A stretch of 64,000 nucleotides of DNA. Source: Alphaproteobacteria bacterium. Its GTDB lineage: Bacteria; Pseudomonadota; Alphaproteobacteria; Micropepsales; Micropepsaceae. The notes under the pieces are model-generated. The model did no database searches and was not told the DNA's origin. It worked only from the letters and a program-made list of their open reading frames with translations. Shown here in pieces: positions 20,188 to 48,426 of this stretch. The stretch is from the NCBI GenBank assembly GCA_003158585.1, contig PMKE01000071.1, positions 114,895 to 178,894 of the forward strand. The letters run 5' to 3'. Positions within the stretch are counted from its first letter, which is position 1. The number at the start of each line of letters is the position of its first letter. The position numbers and the translations under genes were made by a program.

Positions 20188-20263
20188 GCGCAATCCGGAA
20201 AAGTGTGAAGCGGTTTTCCGCTAGATTGCGCGAATATAAAAAGCCGAATTTAGAGACTGCGTG

Positions 20264-20752
20264 ATGTCGAAACCCGGATACGTCGAGCTGCCGTATCGTC
20301 CCAGCGTGGGCGTGATGCTGCTCGACAGAGAGGGCCGCGTCTTCGTCGGCCGGCGCATCGATCAGAGCGTGGAAGGCTGGCAGATGCCGCAAGGCGGCAT
20401 CGACGCGGGCGAGACGCCGCACGAGGCGGCGCGGCGCGAATTGAAGGAAGAGATCGGCACCGACAAGTGCGACTTCCTGCGCGAGATGGATGGCTGGCTG
20501 TCCTACGATCTGCCGTCCCATCTCATCGGCGTGGCGCTGCACGGGCGCTTCCGCGGCCAGAGGCAGAAATGGCTGGCGGCGCGTTTTTTGGGTACCGACG
20601 CCGACATCAACCTCGAAACCCACGAGCCTGAGTTCGAAGCCTGGCGCTGGATCGCGATGGACGAACTGCCGTCCCTGATCGTGCCCTTCAAGCGCGACAC
20701 CTATAAGAAGGTGATCGCCGCCTTCCGCGACCTGGCAATGCCCGCGGCGTAG
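20264..20752 (+). CDS. rppH: RNA pyrophosphohydrolase (Nudix)
   Basis: 'YRPSVGVMLLDREGRVFVGRRID...WQMPQGGIDAGETPHEAARRELKEEIGT' Nudix box. Confidence 0.93.
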   Translation: MSKPGYVELPYRPSVGVMLLDREGRVFVGRRIDQSVEGWQMPQGGIDAGETPHEAARRELKEEIGTDKCDFLREMDGWLSYDLPSHLIGVALHGRFRGQRQKWLAARFLGTDADINLETHEPEFEAWRWIAMDELPSLIVPFKRDTYKKVIAAFRDLAMPAA

Positions 20753-20784
20753 AGCGGCTGCTTTCAACACTGCTTGTATTAGCT

Positions 20785-20840
20785 GTCATCCCGGGCAAGC
20801 GTCCTTCGCGCAGCGAAGGACGCGCGACCCGGGACCCACC
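20785..20840. repeat. Dispersed intergenic palindromic repeat, copy 3 (left half only)
   Basis: 'gtcatcccgggcaagcgtccttcgcgcagcgaaggacgcgcgacccgggacccacc' matches copy 1 left half. Confidence 0.75.
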
Positions 20841-20940
20841 GAGACAGATGCGTGATCTTGAGCAGGAATGCGGTACGAGGTTCCAGACGGGACTTCAACT
20901 TCTTCGTCATGGCCGCCCTTGAGGCTGCCATCCGGATTAC

Positions 20941-21003
20941 CACGCGGAGACGCGGAGAACGCGGAGTGGAAGAGTGTCTCCGCGGCCTCCGCGCCTCCGC
21001 GTG
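20941..21003. repeat. 26-bp imperfect inverted repeat (CACGCGGAGACGCGGAGAACGCGGAG / CTCCGCGGCCTCCGCGCCTCCGCGTG)
   Basis: Arms at 20941-20966 and 20978-21003, 11-bp loop. Confidence 0.8.
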
Positions 21004-21108
21004 CGTTATTGCTAATCCCGCGACAGCTTTTCCATCACGGCCTGGAACGACGATGCGGGAGATGCGAGTCATGAAGAAATTCCAGGCGCGGGCGCGAAGC
21101 AGGCGCAG

Positions 21109-21378
21109 GTGCACAGCAAACGCGGTAATGTGTCAAAGTGTGCTGCTGAACCCGAGTCCCGCGATGACGCGGTAATGGATAAGCTGTCGACGCATTCCCA
21201 CCTTCAAAACCTGATTGTGTTACGCATGCAAAACCACCAGGGTATCCACACGAACGCGTATTATGAAGGCGTGAACGGTGCGACCAATGCTGGTTTGAAT
21301 GCGGCTGGTAGTTCAGGGGTAAGCGCGGCTCTGGAAGCCATTAAGGCATCGCTCCTCGCAAAGGGAACATATCCATGA
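21109..21378 (+). pseudogene. C-terminal remnant of AHH-like polymorphic toxin domain
   Basis: 'GIHTNAYYEGVNGATNAGLNAAGSSGVSAALEAIKASLLAKGTYP' resembles the C-terminal part of AHH/HNH-clade toxin domains; no AHH motif upstream; in-frame stop at 21013-21015. Confidence 0.5.
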
Positions 21379-21980
21379 CAATTTGGGCGATGCGCGGACA
21401 AGAAGGGTCACTCGTTGGTTTTGTGCCGGATGAACGTCTGGCAAAGGCGATTACAACGTGCGGTATGAACCCCATCGCAGTGAGAGAGGTACTGCGCGCA
21501 GCGGGAATGGAAATTTTTGACATGCAGATTGCTGAACCTTCGGCAACGAGGGTCGAAATGAACCGCCAATCGATTCCCGATCTTGTGATTTGGTCGTGGA
21601 TTGCCATCTTTTCACAACGTGCCGCGTCGACTGCGGTCGAGTTGGGGTGTGAGGCAGGAGAATTTTGGCCGTGCCGGTTTCAGTCGAATCCAGAGGAGGA
21701 GTTCTTTTTTCATCTGCCTTTGAAAGTCTTTGATATCGTCGATGTCAAAAGATCGACCTTCAGGCATATCCTTCCAGTAGATCCCCCGATCCCGATGTTC
21801 ATTGAAGCATTGGTAACAAAACAATTGCCCGACGAACTTCCGCCATGCTTTAGAGCTGAAACACCTGGGACAACCATAGTTTTCAGCGAGTTGTTTGTTC
21901 GAGATGATTTTAGGCTTGCATGGGATCGGAATGCATTCCGCGGTGCTGTGTTTCGTCGGCTTTCGACACAAATGGAGTGA
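21375..21980 (+). CDS. Probable immunity protein (Imm11/Imm43-like, tentative)
   Basis: 201 aa, 'IPDLVIWSWIAIFSQRAASTAVELGCEAGEFWPCRF...PLKVFDIVDVKRSTFRHI'; ATGA overlap with upstream toxin remnant; lower GC. Confidence 0.5.
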   Translation: MTIWAMRGQEGSLVGFVPDERLAKAITTCGMNPIAVREVLRAAGMEIFDMQIAEPSATRVEMNRQSIPDLVIWSWIAIFSQRAASTAVELGCEAGEFWPCRFQSNPEEEFFFHLPLKVFDIVDVKRSTFRHILPVDPPIPMFIEALVTKQLPDELPPCFRAETPGTTIVFSELFVRDDFRLAWDRNAFRGAVFRRLSTQME

Positions 21981-22610
21981 GGCTTGCCGGTGGAGAATCC
22001 AGCGACAGCGTATCCATTACAGAAGCTGCGGCTGGTCCTGCGCTGGTTTAATCGGCTGGCAAGCGCCGCGTGAGGTGCGTGCGGGGGCAGAGTCGATCCA
22101 CTCCAAACCCCAGCCGCCGGCTCCGGAATGATAATGCGTCTCGGTGTCGTAACATTATTTGATCATTGAATCTGCTGCATACCCCTTGAAACGTTCTTTG
22201 TCCGTTCCCATATGCCGCTTGTTGTTTGGGAAAAGGAGCAGAACGGCAGAACAGCGGCCAAGGGTCTTTCGCGAAGGCTCCGATCCGCAGCGGCGCGAGA
22301 ACATACAGGACCGAAGGATGCGCGCTCGCGTGCATCCGCAAGGGACCGCATCAGGATCGCCGCCCGTTGTCGTGCAAGGCACGAAGCGGGTCGCGCTGCC
22401 CTCGAGGGCGGGGCGCCAGGCGCAGGATGTGCTGTCCCGCGAGGTCCGAGGACAAGCAAAGGTGCATGTCTCTTTCCGCGTGGCGGATTGGGCTTGCCGG
22501 CCGTAGCTGTGCCGGAGGCGGGTTCGCGGTTTGGGCCGCGCGCCCGCCTTTGGGCTATCTGGGGAGAGGGGAAATCCGCCGGATAGGACCCGGCATGAAC
22601 GCGAGCCGTT

Positions 22611-25600
22611 CTATTCCGTTTGCTGCCGAAGGTCCTGCATGAAGGTCTTCAGCGTATCGATGGAAGCAACCTGAGAAGCGGCGTCGCGGAAGGCCAGCCC
22701 GTGCAGGTCGATGCGCTGGGTGACGACGGCAAAGGCGCTGGCGTCGGGGCTCGCTTTCATCTTGACGCCGAAATGCGTGCGCAGGCGGTCGAGGCCGGCT
22801 TCGTCGTTGGCGAGCGAAAAGGCGACGGCGGCGCGCATCGCCGTCTGGCGTTCTTCGGCGGTGAGCGGCGAGGCTTCGTTCCAGCGCGTGCCGAGCGCTT
22901 CCTCGGCCGTCTGGGCGGCGAGCGGCCAGTTGCTGCTCTGCCAATAGATGTCGGCGCGCAAGCGCTGGGTGTCCGGCGCCTGATCGACGGCAAGGAGTTC
23001 GAGCGCCTGATCCCACTGCTTCTGTTCGGCCAGCGCGCGGGCCTCCATCAGAAGACGCTGATGCGCCACCTCGTCCGGCAAGGTGGAGATCTGCGTGCTG
23101 CGCAAGGTTTCGAGCACGGCGCCGGGTTTGTGGTCCATCAGCTGGACCATGGCGAGTCTGGTGGCGACCTGAGCGCGCGCCACTCCGTCCAGCCGCTTGT
23201 CGATCTGGTACTGGAGCAGGTCCGCGGCCGGTCCCAGAAGATCGACGGCCACCAGCCGGTCCGACATGTGGCGGATCATCTCGTCGCCCTCGGGGCCGAT
23301 GGGCGTCAGTTCGATGAAGTCGTAGAACACTGACAGCGCTTCGACCGGCGGCATGCCGTCGGCCTTGCCGTTGAGGAAAAGATCGACGAAGGCGGCGCGC
23401 ATGTCGTCCTGCGCCTTGCCCGACATATCATCGTTGGGAAAGTTCGCGGTGGCGATGCGCAGCGTCTGAAGTCCTTCGCGCCAACTCTTCTGGGCGAAGT
23501 AGATCGAGGCGAGCGCGCGCAGGGTCTTCAGCTCCAGCTGGTCGCCGCGCCAGCGGTAACGCAGCCGTTCCAGCGCATTGATCGCCTGGGCCGGCTTCAT
23601 GGTGCCCGCCGCCAGGCCCGCGGTGACGCGGTAGTAGACGGCTTGCGCCGCCTGTTGCTCGTTGCCGCTCGATTCCACCAGAGCGAACAGACGGTCGGCG
23701 TCGCGTCTGCGGCGTTCCGCGGCATAGAGCCGGGCGCGGTCGAGCGCCGCCTGGAGCATCAACGGCTTGTCCAGCCGGTCGGAAAGACCCGCAAGCTGCG
23801 CGTCGGCGATCTCGAGCCGTCCGATGCCCAGCGCCGCCTCGGCGGCGGCAAGGCGCTCCCGCGCCCGCATGTCGGGTTCATAGGCATCCATCACCGGTGC
23901 GGCGCGCTCCAGATCGGTGCGAGCCGGGTCCCAATTCTCCTGCGCAGCCTCGATCAGTCCGCGCCACAGAGCGGCGTGGCGGTCGGCGTCGAACTGCGCG
24001 CCCGCCAGATCGTTGTGCGCTTCGCGATAACGGCCCATCTGGAGATTTGCCGCCGCGCGCATGGTCTGAAGCTGCATGTCGCTCTGCAGGGCGGGATCGT
24101 CCGCCTGCAAGATGTTGATGATTCCCAGCGCTTCGGCGGCGAAGCTGTTGGCCAGATAGAATTGCGCCAGCGTCAGGCGGGCCCATCCTGCGGCTTGCGG
24201 CCTCAGCCGCGCCACGGCGGCGCGCAACCGGCGCTCCGTGGCAAGGAAGGTGCCGCCGCTGATCTTCCGCCATCTGGGGAAGTCGAGGAAGCAGGGGCCT
24301 TGGCCGCTGCGGGCCAGGGCCTCGGGCGTACCGGCGGCCAGGGAGGCGGGGGTGAGCGACAATCCGCCCGCGCGCGTGATCGTCACGCGTGTGCCGGCGA
24401 TCGTCACCGAAAGGTCGTCGACGAAAGGCAGCAGCACGATGCCAGAGGCCGTCTCGAGGGCGGAGAACTCGACATAATTGCGTTCGTTTGCCGTCTTCCT
24501 GCCGGCCGCGCCCGGAATCAAGGTCAACTCGTCGCCGGCTTCGGGATCGACCAGCTTCATCGGCTGGGTAACGCCGGGAAGCAGCGTCGAGATCGAGGAG
24601 CTGCCCGGACGGTCCTGGTTGCGGGCAAAGCCGATGGCGAGCGCGGTCGAATCCACATGCGGCGCGATCACGACCTTGAGAGTCGAGCCTTCGGCAAAGG
24701 CGGCGATCTGTTCCGGCTGCTTCAGGGAGATGCGCAGTTGCGTCGAGTTGCTGGTGGTTGCCGCATCGATGGCGGCGGGGAAGTCGCCGAGCTGCGCCTT
24801 CAGCTTGGTGGCGTCGAGCCGCGGCGCATCCTGAAGGATGATCCAGGCGGTCAAACCGCGGATGAATACGGCCGAACCGCGCCGTCCGGCACCAGGGAAA
24901 GTCAGCACGGCGCCGTCGCGCGTCAATTTGCTGTCGGCGATCTGGACGTCGGGTGGCGTACCGGCCGGCGGCGCAACGGCTGCCGTATCCGCCGGCTGCG
25001 GTTCGGTGACCGCCTGCTGCGGTTGATCGGCGGCGGGCTTGGTCCGGCCGTTAAGCTTTGCCGCGGCATCCAAGATCGCTTGCGCCTTTGCCGCCGCCGT
25101 CGAGGCCTCGTTGTCGGACGGATTATAGGCGTCGGCATCGGTCCTCGGCGCCAGCACGTCAATGACGACATGCGTCCCGTCGCGGAAGTTGCGGAAGCCG
25201 GAGGCCGCGTCTGTGACGAATTCGACGACGGTCCCCTTGTTCTCGATGTGCCAGCCGGCGGCTTTCACCCAGGGCGGCGCCTGATTGTTGATGGCCGTGA
25301 AGTCGAGATTCGCCAGCGCCTCGAAGCGGACCGTCAGCTTTCCCGCCCCCGGAAACGCCGCATAAGGCACGTTGCGAGACCAGTCGAAGACGATGCGCGT
25401 GTAGTTGCGATAGGTCCCCGCATGGACCTTGAGGGTTTCGATTTTGGTGGGATCGACCGTTTTGCCCGGCGGCGGGGGCGGCGGCGGAAGATTGGGCGTC
25501 GTGCCGGCATAACTCAGAGGTGCCAGGTCGACGGCGAACCTGCCGGCAGAGGAACTGGTGTGGACGCGCACGGACTGCGTCAGCGCGAAGCGGAAGGTCT

Positions 25601-25892
25601 TGCCGTCCGGATCGGCGCGCGCGCTGGCAAGATAGGCGGGGACGGCCTGGGCGACGGCGTTGGGTGTGATCGCCGGCTTGCGGTTGAATGAGATCGTCAG
25701 GACCGCGCCGACGGCTTGCGCGGACACCTTGTCGGCCGGCGTCAGTCCGAACAGAAGCCGTGCAAATCCATTCTCTGTCGAAGCCGCGAAAGAATCGGCC
25801 TTGGCGCCCGGCGCGCAGCTCAGCACGGCGCAGACGAGGCAGAAGCGGAAGAGGTTTCGCACGAACCGTTGCATAAAGAAAACCCTGTCCAA
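22611..25892 (-). CDS. Large exported protein, AMIN-like N-terminus + TPR-rich C-terminus
   Basis: 1093 aa, signal peptide 'FVRNLFRFCLVCAVLSCAPGAKA'; 'YRNYTRIVFDWSRNVPYAAFPGAGKLTVRFEA' AMIN-like; TPR-like C-terminal half; next to motE. Confidence 0.7.
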   Translation of the reverse strand: MDRVFFMQRFVRNLFRFCLVCAVLSCAPGAKADSFAASTENGFARLLFGLTPADKVSAQAVGAVLTISFNRKPAITPNAVAQAVPAYLASARADPDGKTFRFALTQSVRVHTSSSAGRFAVDLAPLSYAGTTPNLPPPPPPPGKTVDPTKIETLKVHAGTYRNYTRIVFDWSRNVPYAAFPGAGKLTVRFEALANLDFTAINNQAPPWVKAAGWHIENKGTVVEFVTDAASGFRNFRDGTHVVIDVLAPRTDADAYNPSDNEASTAAAKAQAILDAAAKLNGRTKPAADQPQQAVTEPQPADTAAVAPPAGTPPDVQIADSKLTRDGAVLTFPGAGRRGSAVFIRGLTAWIILQDAPRLDATKLKAQLGDFPAAIDAATTSNSTQLRISLKQPEQIAAFAEGSTLKVVIAPHVDSTALAIGFARNQDRPGSSSISTLLPGVTQPMKLVDPEAGDELTLIPGAAGRKTANERNYVEFSALETASGIVLLPFVDDLSVTIAGTRVTITRAGGLSLTPASLAAGTPEALARSGQGPCFLDFPRWRKISGGTFLATERRLRAAVARLRPQAAGWARLTLAQFYLANSFAAEALGIINILQADDPALQSDMQLQTMRAAANLQMGRYREAHNDLAGAQFDADRHAALWRGLIEAAQENWDPARTDLERAAPVMDAYEPDMRARERLAAAEAALGIGRLEIADAQLAGLSDRLDKPLMLQAALDRARLYAAERRRRDADRLFALVESSGNEQQAAQAVYYRVTAGLAAGTMKPAQAINALERLRYRWRGDQLELKTLRALASIYFAQKSWREGLQTLRIATANFPNDDMSGKAQDDMRAAFVDLFLNGKADGMPPVEALSVFYDFIELTPIGPEGDEMIRHMSDRLVAVDLLGPAADLLQYQIDKRLDGVARAQVATRLAMVQLMDHKPGAVLETLRSTQISTLPDEVAHQRLLMEARALAEQKQWDQALELLAVDQAPDTQRLRADIYWQSSNWPLAAQTAEEALGTRWNEASPLTAEERQTAMRAAVAFSLANDEAGLDRLRTHFGVKMKASPDASAFAVVTQRIDLHGLAFRDAASQVASIDTLKTFMQDLRQQTE

Positions 25893-45137: not shown

Positions 45138-45345
45138 TGTGGCGGAATCGGCCGGGGCGGTGCGCGCCTTCGTCGCGGCGGCCGTGCGATGCCGCGCGGC
45201 TGCATCGGCGACGCCGAGTTGCAGATGTTCGTGACAATCCCGTCATTCATCGTAATGACAGCGCGGTCTTTGCCTTCACCCATGCAGGAAGCGAGACGCT
45301 GGTATGTCCGAACCGCCAGCGTCCGAACCATTGTATTACATCAGG

Positions 45346-45825
45346 TTACCAAGACTTCCCGTCAGCATACCCTTCCACACAACGATTCTGTTCTTCGAAG
45401 ATTTGAATCTTTCGAATGCGTTCGGCGTGGCGACCGCCATCGAAGGGCGTCTTGATCCACACATCAATAATCATCTTGGCAAGCTCCAATCCGACGACTC
45501 GAGCGCCTAATGCCAGGACATTGGCATCATTGTGCGCTCTGGAGAGCATCGCCGAGTACGGCTCGCTGCAGGTCACTGCGCGAACGCCCCTGACCTTGTT
45601 GGCGCAAATGCCAATACCGACTCCCGTGCCGCAAAAAAGAATGCCGCGATCGAAATTTCCCCCCACAACAGATTTGGCGACTGCAAAACCGTATTCGCAA
45701 TAGTCGACAGGCTCCATGCTCATGGCGCCAAAATCAACAACCTCATGTTCGGCCCCGCACAACCATTTCGCCACTTCGGATTTGAAGGCGAATGCGGTGT
45801 GATCTGAACCAATTGCTATTCTCAT
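45346..45825 (-). CDS. RpiB/LacA/LacB family sugar-phosphate isomerase
   Basis: 'MRIAIGSDHTAFAFKSEVAKWL', 'GILFCGTGVGIGICANKVRGVRAVTCSEPYSAMLSRAHNDANVLALGARVVG'. Confidence 0.93.
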   Translation of the reverse strand: MRIAIGSDHTAFAFKSEVAKWLCGAEHEVVDFGAMSMEPVDYCEYGFAVAKSVVGGNFDRGILFCGTGVGIGICANKVRGVRAVTCSEPYSAMLSRAHNDANVLALGARVVGLELAKMIIDVWIKTPFDGGRHAERIRKIQIFEEQNRCVEGYADGKSW

Positions 45826-46003
45826 TGCTTCATTTCCCCCTCTTGCAGCCATACCGATGAACTCGTCCTGTTTTGATCGAACCGATAGGGACACTTCCCC
45901 CTCGAATGCCCCAGGACAGCCCGCAACGTAAGTTCCACCGACTACCTCTCAAAACCACTTCCACGCCGGGAAGAGTTCTTGATGCAACGAGGGCGGTAAC
46001 AGA

Positions 46004-46840
46004 TCAATTCGCCATGGCGCGAAACACCTTTGGGGACATGCCTCGCCACTTCCGGAAGGCATGGAAGAAACTGCCGTAATCGGTGAATCCGCAACGCATT
46101 GCTATTTCCTGCAGAGGCAGATCTGTCTCGCGCATGAGCGCGCACGCCCGCGCAACCCGGCGGCTGCGGACGGCGGCAGCCACCCCCTCGCCCTTGTGCT
46201 CCGCAAACAAGCGGTACAGTGCGGAACGGCTGAGATGGAACTGCGCGCAGATGTTTTCGCTGCTGAAGGGCTTGTCCAGATTGGCGTCGATATAGGCCTC
46301 AATGCGCTGAAGCAGCCGGCCTTTGTGCAGTGAAACCAGACCGCTTCTCAGAACATAGCTGATGCAAGCTTCGAGTATCTTGGCCGCCGCATTGATCCGC
46401 TCAGAAGTGAATGCGGGAATGCGCATCGTCGTTTTCATGCATGCGGCTCGCGATATGCCGAGGGCCGACGCCCGCATCGACATTTCAGCCAGGAATTTCT
46501 TGCGCTCCGGGACGTCCGAAATCTGCCCGAACATGATGTAACCGAGCAGAACCCCGTCGTCCTTTATCGGGGCCGTCGTCTCCAGCAGCCCGGCATGGCA
46601 ATGATACATCGTCAATTGGCCGGTCTTCCGGCAGCGTTCGAAGGATTGGACGTTGCTCGCCTCGCATCCCGCTTTGGTCTTCGGCGCATCGTGCATCAGT
46701 TGGCAGAAGGCGCAGTGCGATTCTGGATAGGACAGGATTTCCCGGTACTCGGGGTCGAAGAAAGCGATCTTTATACCAGTCAGCGTATGAAAACTGCGCA
46801 TGAGGTCGTAAAGTCCCGCACGGTTCAGGTCCACGCTCAT
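46004..46840 (-). CDS. AraC family transcriptional regulator with PocR sensory domain
   Basis: PocR-like 'FHTLTGIKIAFFDPEYREILSYPESHCAFCQLMH...CEASNVQSFERCRKTGQLTMYHCHAGL'; C-terminal AraC HTH 'LQEIAMRCGFTDYGSFFHAFRKWRGMSPKVFR'. Confidence 0.9.
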   Translation of the reverse strand: MSVDLNRAGLYDLMRSFHTLTGIKIAFFDPEYREILSYPESHCAFCQLMHDAPKTKAGCEASNVQSFERCRKTGQLTMYHCHAGLLETTAPIKDDGVLLGYIMFGQISDVPERKKFLAEMSMRASALGISRAACMKTTMRIPAFTSERINAAAKILEACISYVLRSGLVSLHKGRLLQRIEAYIDANLDKPFSSENICAQFHLSRSALYRLFAEHKGEGVAAAVRSRRVARACALMRETDLPLQEIAMRCGFTDYGSFFHAFRKWRGMSPKVFRAMAN

Positions 46841-46974
46841 GCGACTCTCCGCAAATCCCGTATCCGCGATGCCGTCAGCATCGTATACAATATGTGCAGG
46901 GCTCGATGGAAGGATGGAGCAAGCCATCGTACGCCAAGGGACTATTCCATCGAAGACTGAAACGGCCTGAAAGC

Positions 46975-48426
46975 TCAAAGCCCCGGCAGCCTGCGCAGCA
47001 GCGGATAAACCTCCCGGTATTTCGAGAACAAAGCATCGTACGAATTGTCCACATTGGGCGTGACCACACTCAGTGGCTGCACCCAGCGCCGAACCAGAGC
47101 GGCGAGCGGTTCCCCGCCAACCGCCGAGAACGCCAGCATCGCCGCGCCCAAGCATCCGGCCTCCTCGACATTCAGTCTGGAGATGGGGCGGTTGATCACG
47201 TCGGCTTTCAACTGTGTCCAGAACTGGGAACGGGCACCGCCGCCGATCGCGCGCAGTTCGCTCACCTCGCATCCGGATTCCCGCAAGATTTCCAAATTCA
47301 GCCGCATCTCCAGTGCCACACCCTCGAGAAGCGCGCGCAGGATCTCGCCCCGCGTGGTGTTCATACGCAGGCCACAAATGACACCCGGGGTGTTAACGTC
47401 GAAATAGGGCGTTCCTGACGGCGTCCAATATGGCAACACCAGGAGTTTTGTCGGGCTTTGGGCCGCCGTTGCCAGCAGCGCGTCGTAGCCCTCGGCGGGA
47501 GCGAACTGTTCCTTGAACCACCTCAGGATGTTTCCGCCGGTCAAGCTGTAGGCGACAGTAGCGTAACGGCCAGGAATAACATGGTCGTAAGTGCAAAGGT
47601 TGTTGCGCTGCAACTCGGCCGACAACACGGGAGATGCGAACGTCGGACAGATGCATTCCACCGATCCGGTGGCGTACATCGCCATTCCCGGCTCGACCGC
47701 GCCTGCGCCCAATGCGCCGCAAGTCTGATCGTGGCCGCCGGTGACAACCACGGCTCCCTTCGCCAGACCCAAGTCCGCCCTCACCTCGCCGACGATGGTT
47801 CCAGACGGCAGCGGAGCGGCAAGACGCTCGCGCGCAAGGCCTATCCTGTCCAGGATTTCGCCGCTCCACTCGTGCCGCCGCACGTCGAACAGCATCGTGC
47901 GCCCTGCCAGCGGCCAGCCCATGGAGGGCGGAACGCCAAGACGTGCATGCAGCAGGTCTTCAAAACAGAGAAACTTGGCGGCATGGCGCCAGACGTCGGG
48001 ACGATTGACCTTTAACCAGAGCAGCTTGAAAAGCGTGAAAAGGGGATGAGCCGTATGGCCTGTGATCTGGTAGAGACGGTCGGGGCCGAATTCTTCCGGC
48101 CATTCCCGGCTGAATTTGGCAGCACGGACATCCGACGACACCATGGCGGGACCGAGCGCACGACCATTTCGGTCGATCGGTGTAAATGCCTCGCCTTGGC
48201 TTGAGATACTGATTGCCTGGACCTTATCGGTACCAGCGCGCTGCGCCGCCTCCCGGATCACCGAAAGGCAGCAGTCCATCACCTGTTCCGAATCGAGCTC
48301 GGCACCGCCGTCATCGGTAAGATGGAGAGAATACGGCCGCTGGGCTTCCGCCAACTGCCGCCCATCCGCATTGAACACGGCAGCCTTGCAGCTGCCGGTT
48401 CCGATATCGATGCCCAGGACGCTCAT
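46975..48426 (-). CDS. FGGY family carbohydrate kinase (xylulokinase-like)
   Basis: 'MSVLGIDIGTGSCKAAVFNADGRQLAEAQRPY', 'VVVTGGHDQTCGALGAGAVEPGMAMYATGSVE', 'IGGGARSQFWTQLKADV'. Confidence 0.93.
   Translation of the reverse strand: MSVLGIDIGTGSCKAAVFNADGRQLAEAQRPYSLHLTDDGGAELDSEQVMDCCLSVIREAAQRAGTDKVQAISISSQGEAFTPIDRNGRALGPAMVSSDVRAAKFSREWPEEFGPDRLYQITGHTAHPLFTLFKLLWLKVNRPDVWRHAAKFLCFEDLLHARLGVPPSMGWPLAGRTMLFDVRRHEWSGEILDRIGLARERLAAPLPSGTIVGEVRADLGLAKGAVVVTGGHDQTCGALGAGAVEPGMAMYATGSVECICPTFASPVLSAELQRNNLCTYDHVIPGRYATVAYSLTGGNILRWFKEQFAPAEGYDALLATAAQSPTKLLVLPYWTPSGTPYFDVNTPGVICGLRMNTTRGEILRALLEGVALEMRLNLEILRESGCEVSELRAIGGGARSQFWTQLKADVINRPISRLNVEEAGCLGAAMLAFSAVGGEPLAALVRRWVQPLSVVTPNVDNSYDALFSKYREVYPLLRRLPGL

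Follow-up and report, generated by a model that had tools for sequence, protein, structure and literature searches.

The locus examined here raises the question of how an intact open frame came to stand directly behind the tail of a nuclease toxin, and whether such a remnant could still serve its host. In the window, by which we mean the whole 64-kb stretch of DNA analysed, a frame of 89 codons on the forward strand (21109-21378; GTG start, 89 aa, ending in ...SSGVSAALEAIKASLLAKGTYP) runs into a 201-aa gene on the same strand (21375-21980; ATG start), the ATGA at 21375-21378 being common to the stop of the first and the start of the second. Both frames and their ATGA coupling had been described in an initial annotation, and the sequence bears the coordinates out. 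In our reading the two are probably what is left of an AHH-Imm11 pair, a decayed toxin and a still open immunity gene, and as such a relic of bacterial warfare of a known kind.

The end of the 89-aa frame had been likened to the tail of AHH nuclease toxins, and the likeness holds. Against the Pfam AHH model (PF14412, an HNH/EndoVII nuclease domain) the frame reaches 20.9 bits (E = 3.7e-4), short of the curated cut-off of 22.3 bits, with residues 18-61 aligned to profile positions 38-85 of 111, the C-terminal half only. The last 59 residues alone (21199-21378, forward strand) give E = 0.0013. In an alignment with full-length AHH toxins, this tail keeps the N (QNLIVL), the two H (HQGIH) and the Y (AYY) of the family signature, which is [AG]HH, N, H, H, Y (PMC3482391), and the segment QNLIVL...NHQGIHTNAYY pairs with NLILLP...HDGSHPNY and its relatives. 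The usual helix and L..G segment are present at its end, a NHQGIHTNAYYEGVN-type C-terminus, and the AHH strand is missing. A hand-made AHH profile of six toxins scored the tail at 16.6 against a shuffle maximum of 16.4, which is borderline support, so that the AHH case rests on the Pfam model and the neighbouring gene. The earlier description as a toxin tip stands for these last ~59 residues, toxin-derived from about 21199, and not for the first ~30 codons, where residues ~18-30 (RDDAVMDKLSTHS) are a translated dispersed repeat. The reported lack of a catalytic AHH motif and of a delivery domain was also confirmed. From the upstream gene to the tail, none of the six frames contains an AHH or other HH motif, which rules out that the missing half lies in another frame, and no delivery domain was found upstream of the tail, where repeat DNA is followed by a NUDIX gene. 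With the catalytic AHH strand lost along with all that preceded it, the remaining ~59 residues cannot, judged from sequence, act as an AHH-family nuclease. The tail had no match among plasmids or viral contigs.

The 201-aa gene had been called a probable immunity gene, a proposal that failed with HMMER for both Imm11 and Imm43 but stood for Imm11 in profile-profile comparison. Pfam, NCBIfam and PADLOC all lacked a match to the protein, nothing was listed at E<=10 for the Pfam Imm11 model or for Imm43 (PF15570), and hmmsearch with Imm11 members (PF07791, DUF1629) gathered from genomes of the class and phylum did not separate it from shuffles. With the same kind of members, hhalign gave a score of 29.2 against 30 Imm11 proteins (E = 6e-4, for one comparison), where the highest control scores were 20.4 for 146 open reading frames of the window, 17.6 for 100 shuffles and 12.7 for the reversed sequence. 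The score had been 24.2 with 12 members (60 shuffles, maximum 18.9) and rose as the profile grew to 30. This alignment is collinear over residues 28-199, nearly end to end. Given an HHsuite probability of only 28% and the failure of hmmsearch, we regard the case for an Imm11-like protein as good but not final. AlphaFold, run on the protein as a single sequence, returned a mean pLDDT of 31, too low for a fold to be read from the model, and a sub-threshold match of 44-46 residues to DUF2538 (3kby) was judged to be chance.

Genomic position points to the same family. Comparison with full-length toxin loci recovered the AHH-Imm11 order: 385 class genomes yielded ten AHH toxins, five of them with an Imm11 gene directly downstream, and two further pairs came from the phylum. 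In Myxococcus xanthus this pairing is reported to be the rule (PMC12077181), and PMC3482391 states it as well. The 201-aa gene adjoins the AHH tail in just this position, directly downstream and with an ATGA overlap, and in light of the independent pairs and the literature, position and profile match agree on Imm11. The locus resembles known AHH-Imm11 pairs such as the M. xanthus MXAN_0050/MXAN_0049 and SitAI5 loci (PMC12077181) in its toxin-then-immunity order, tight coupling, AHH C-terminal pattern, ~200-aa immunity protein and collinear Imm11 profile match. Unlike those pairs, its toxin is truncated within the nuclease domain and has no delivery part, and its immunity protein is too divergent for HMMER; such an Imm11-like sequence, below the reach of HMMER, could widen the immunity family.

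In the source genome both genes probably stand alone. No AHH domain was found elsewhere in it, nor a full-length AHH toxin in 59 same-genus genomes; as this search was silent in the control genomes and also at the sub-threshold locus in the window, absence elsewhere is likely rather than proven. Imm11 likewise had no match elsewhere in the source genome. Relatives of the 201-aa protein were found neither in the 59 same-genus and 385 class genomes, nor in the GTDB species genomes (scanned with short exact patterns only), nor in plasmids, phages and viral contigs. Three class-genome matches to it, to an apparent aminotransferase, an apparent carbamoyltransferase and a short frame, were due to chance. 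The initial annotation had left a choice between a decayed cassette and an orphan immunity gene, and both descriptions turn out to be right: the toxin is cut and the Imm11-like frame is open.

Base composition sets this DNA apart from its surroundings. GC content is 0.51 over a stretch of ~0.8 kb (21198-21993), against 0.633 for the 64-kb window; the lower GC noted earlier is thus real, but it begins at about 21198 and not at 21016. By codon position the GC of the 201-aa gene is 0.56/0.45/0.50, its third-position value of 0.50 comparing with 0.78-0.86 in four neighbouring genes, and we counted its low GC and foreign codon use for acquisition.

The left border of this stretch coincides with a repeat. 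A 38-bp element, TCGCGATGACGCGGTAATGGATAAGCTGTCGACGCATTC (or one base less at its left edge), lies at 21160-21197 on the forward strand and marks the toxin breakpoint, with toxin-derived sequence beginning immediately after it. The same genome holds a 100% copy at C71:59897-59934 and further copies of the motif at C71:59939, C9:67389 and C71:29081, often in tandem. Two inverted copies lie nearby on the reverse strand of the window, a weak one at 21013-21038 (6/26 mismatched) and a better one at 21995-22020 (22/26 match), which begins 14 bp past the immunity stop codon and forms the left end of a dispersed element described below. The 26-base core, with up to three mismatches allowed, was absent from the 59 other same-genus genomes, an exact form was absent from the GTDB species genomes scanned (a set from which the source genome may be left out), and a 67-base query had no plasmid match. 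IS21-type terminal repeats were considered for the motif and are not claimed. New here is a cassette that has inverted copies of this genome-specific motif on either side and a multicopy element next to it.

We propose that an AHH nuclease toxin and its Imm11-like immunity protein would have been acquired horizontally as a pair, in a low-GC cassette of ~0.8 kb. The toxin gene is severed within its nuclease domain, exactly at the 38-bp repeat, and is followed by a complete open Imm11-like gene that overlaps the toxin tail and has its own Shine-Dalgarno-like site, AAAGGGA. The orphan immunity protein may have been kept without its toxin, and may bind and block AHH toxins injected by competing relatives. 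Imm11 proteins with 46% identity can neutralise non-cognate AHH toxins (PMC12077181), which gives an orphan copy a plausible use. Judged from sequence, we think it most likely that the 201-aa gene encodes an orphan immunity protein against the AHH toxins of relatives; whether it would still protect or is carried as a silent passenger we put at roughly even odds. A comparable arrangement is the SAIDI-1 islet of Salmonella Typhi (PMC7400221), which also holds an immunity gene without a working cognate toxin in low-GC acquired DNA. Here, unlike in SAIDI-1, there is a single gene with a dead toxin tail attached, the border is a short genome-specific repeat, and the genome is an environmental one. 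The locus would capture one way in which orphan immunity genes originate, with the toxin cut at a repeat and the antidote gene intact.

A serious rival, though a somewhat improbable one in our estimate, shares this acquired origin and takes the whole cassette to be inactive, a neutral passenger that has not yet gained a stop codon. The break in the toxin half fits such a passenger, and so do the failure to find a sigma-70-like promoter ahead of the 201-aa gene, the absence of the locus from all relatives and its setting among intergenic repeats. Against it stand the 201-aa frame, intact across the full Imm11 alignment, and the AAAGGGA upstream of it; the argument from the intact frame is weak, because a recent insertion would look alike.

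The DNA to the right of the immunity gene bears on a second rival. It is occupied by a dispersed element, here called E (21987-22571, forward strand), with about 8 copies in the source genome; that in the window matches C71:29072-29623 at 86%. Copies lie at L053:5073-5624, L054:5182-5727, L055:4896-5415 (reverse strand), L056:4140-4511, L057:4407-4774 (reverse strand), L058:3668-4084 (reverse strand) and L059:4482-4880. An alignment of eight copies shows a conserved CTTGAAA-N~15-CCCATAT (CCCCTTGAAA-N~15-CCCATAT), at about 22170-22206 in the window, which we take to fit an RpoH (sigma-32) promoter. It is followed by a probable small-RNA gene, with a conserved block, AAGGTGCATGTCTCTTTCC...GCGGATTGGGCTTGCC-GCCGTAGC, and a GC-rich hairpin; 11 of the 47 predicted pairs are changed on both sides, although the covariation term is unfavourable overall (+0.92). 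No match of the right kind was found in Rfam. From its sequence, element E looks like a family of small-RNA genes under a heat-shock promoter. In four copies the motif sits at the upstream edge; the DNA past it is in every case low in GC (roughly 0.47-0.57 in 200-base steps) and contains an accessory-looking gene. Since copies that lack the motif (C29, C14) adjoin low-GC DNA too, we regard the tie between motif and cargo as no more than suggestive.

Two of these loci deserve description in their own right. At C71:59897-61181 (positions 3898-5182 of L054, which is C71:56000-66000) the layout is the same as in the window: a tandem 38-bp motif comes first, then a low-GC gene for a 386-aa cupin-like protein with multiple transmembrane segments and no Pfam match, then an inverted motif and element E. 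At 3643-5106 of L053 (C71:24000-34000) lies an IS200-like Y1 transposase gene (PF01797), by eye of the REP-associated type, which adjoins a low-GC HTH regulator, a 128-aa gene and a motif-bearing copy of E.

The cassette could then be a mobile unit, in which low-GC genes lie between inverted copies of the motif (GTAATGGATAAGC-TGTCGACGSATTC), whose inner ends, TGTC...GACA, resemble the termini of transposons from a family with repeated ends; the toxin would have been cut as the left end formed. We hold this to be unlikely. The recurrence of the layout at C71:59897-61181 around a different gene, of 386 aa, argues for it, as do the E-plus-motif ends at C71:29081 and C9:67389, each next to low-GC genes, and the often tandem motif, absent from other genomes. 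Yet motifs flank both sides in only two of the four loci, no transposase is tied to the motif at all copies and no target-site duplication was shown; the right-hand motif copy may be the mere edge of element E, and two motif-less E copies also neighbour low-GC DNA. The broader claim, that low-GC accessory cassettes beside motif-bearing small-RNA elements with an RpoH promoter form an undescribed, lineage-specific mobile system, is more doubtful still. Its cargo would comprise the immunity gene, the HTH regulator, the cupin-like membrane protein and a lipoprotein. If real, such a system would capture and trim foreign conflict genes, and the repeat and small-RNA context, if mobile, would be the finding of wider reach.

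A toxin tip and its immunity gene without a delivery domain are the layout of displaced-tip cassettes, and the locus could for that reason be a silent donor of tip and immunity for recombination, as in Rhs, CDI and Maf systems. Here, unlike there, the tip is broken and unusable as a donor: it is cut within the nuclease domain, past the AHH strand, so that a recipient toxin could not be armed, and no full-length AHH toxin was found in the source genome or the 59 same-genus genomes. Although standalone toxin cassettes have been named before (PMC3482391), we consider this reading very improbable. That the two are chance open frames unrelated to toxins, as scores below the Pfam cut-offs might suggest, is effectively refuted by the evidence taken together: each frame independently gives a weak match to one of two partner families, their order is right, stop and start codons overlap, and the island has a foreign composition.

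The decayed AHH-Imm11 pair that we favour sits in an interval that varies across the genus. On its left lies the NUDIX hydrolase gene (rppH-like; 20261-20752, forward strand; Pfam NUDIX 1.6e-25), followed by a short REP-like palindromic repeat (20783-20853; about 25-30 copies in the source genome) and a second palindromic repeat of the CGCGGAG type (20941-21008; about 10 places); on its right is the gene of a 1093-aa TPR-like protein (22611-25892, reverse strand). In 40 relatives from the genus, the NUDIX and TPR genes lie between 17 bp and 7.8 kb apart; most have 0.7-1.2 kb there, with a ~255-aa frame taken for an alpha/beta hydrolase from its HG and GHSMGG motifs and not from an HMM match. 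In G021, a sister genome and one of the relatives most alike over the locus, only 17 bp separate the same flanking genes, which we count for acquisition; in the source genome the gap of 1858 bp is made up of the two palindromic repeats, then the cassette and then element E. The mosaic may have entered the source lineage after the hydrolase was lost, or events may have followed another order. The interval is hypervariable across the genus, with various genes, and is a possible insertion hotspot. Both palindromic repeat families have similar copies in several same-genus genomes. Elsewhere in the window, sliding-window GC revealed one other equally low stretch, at ~45.2-46.3 kb (45200-46300), where by eye we recognised an RpiB-like sugar-phosphate isomerase frame (45346-45894, reverse strand) and an AraC/PocR-like regulator (46004-47377, reverse strand).
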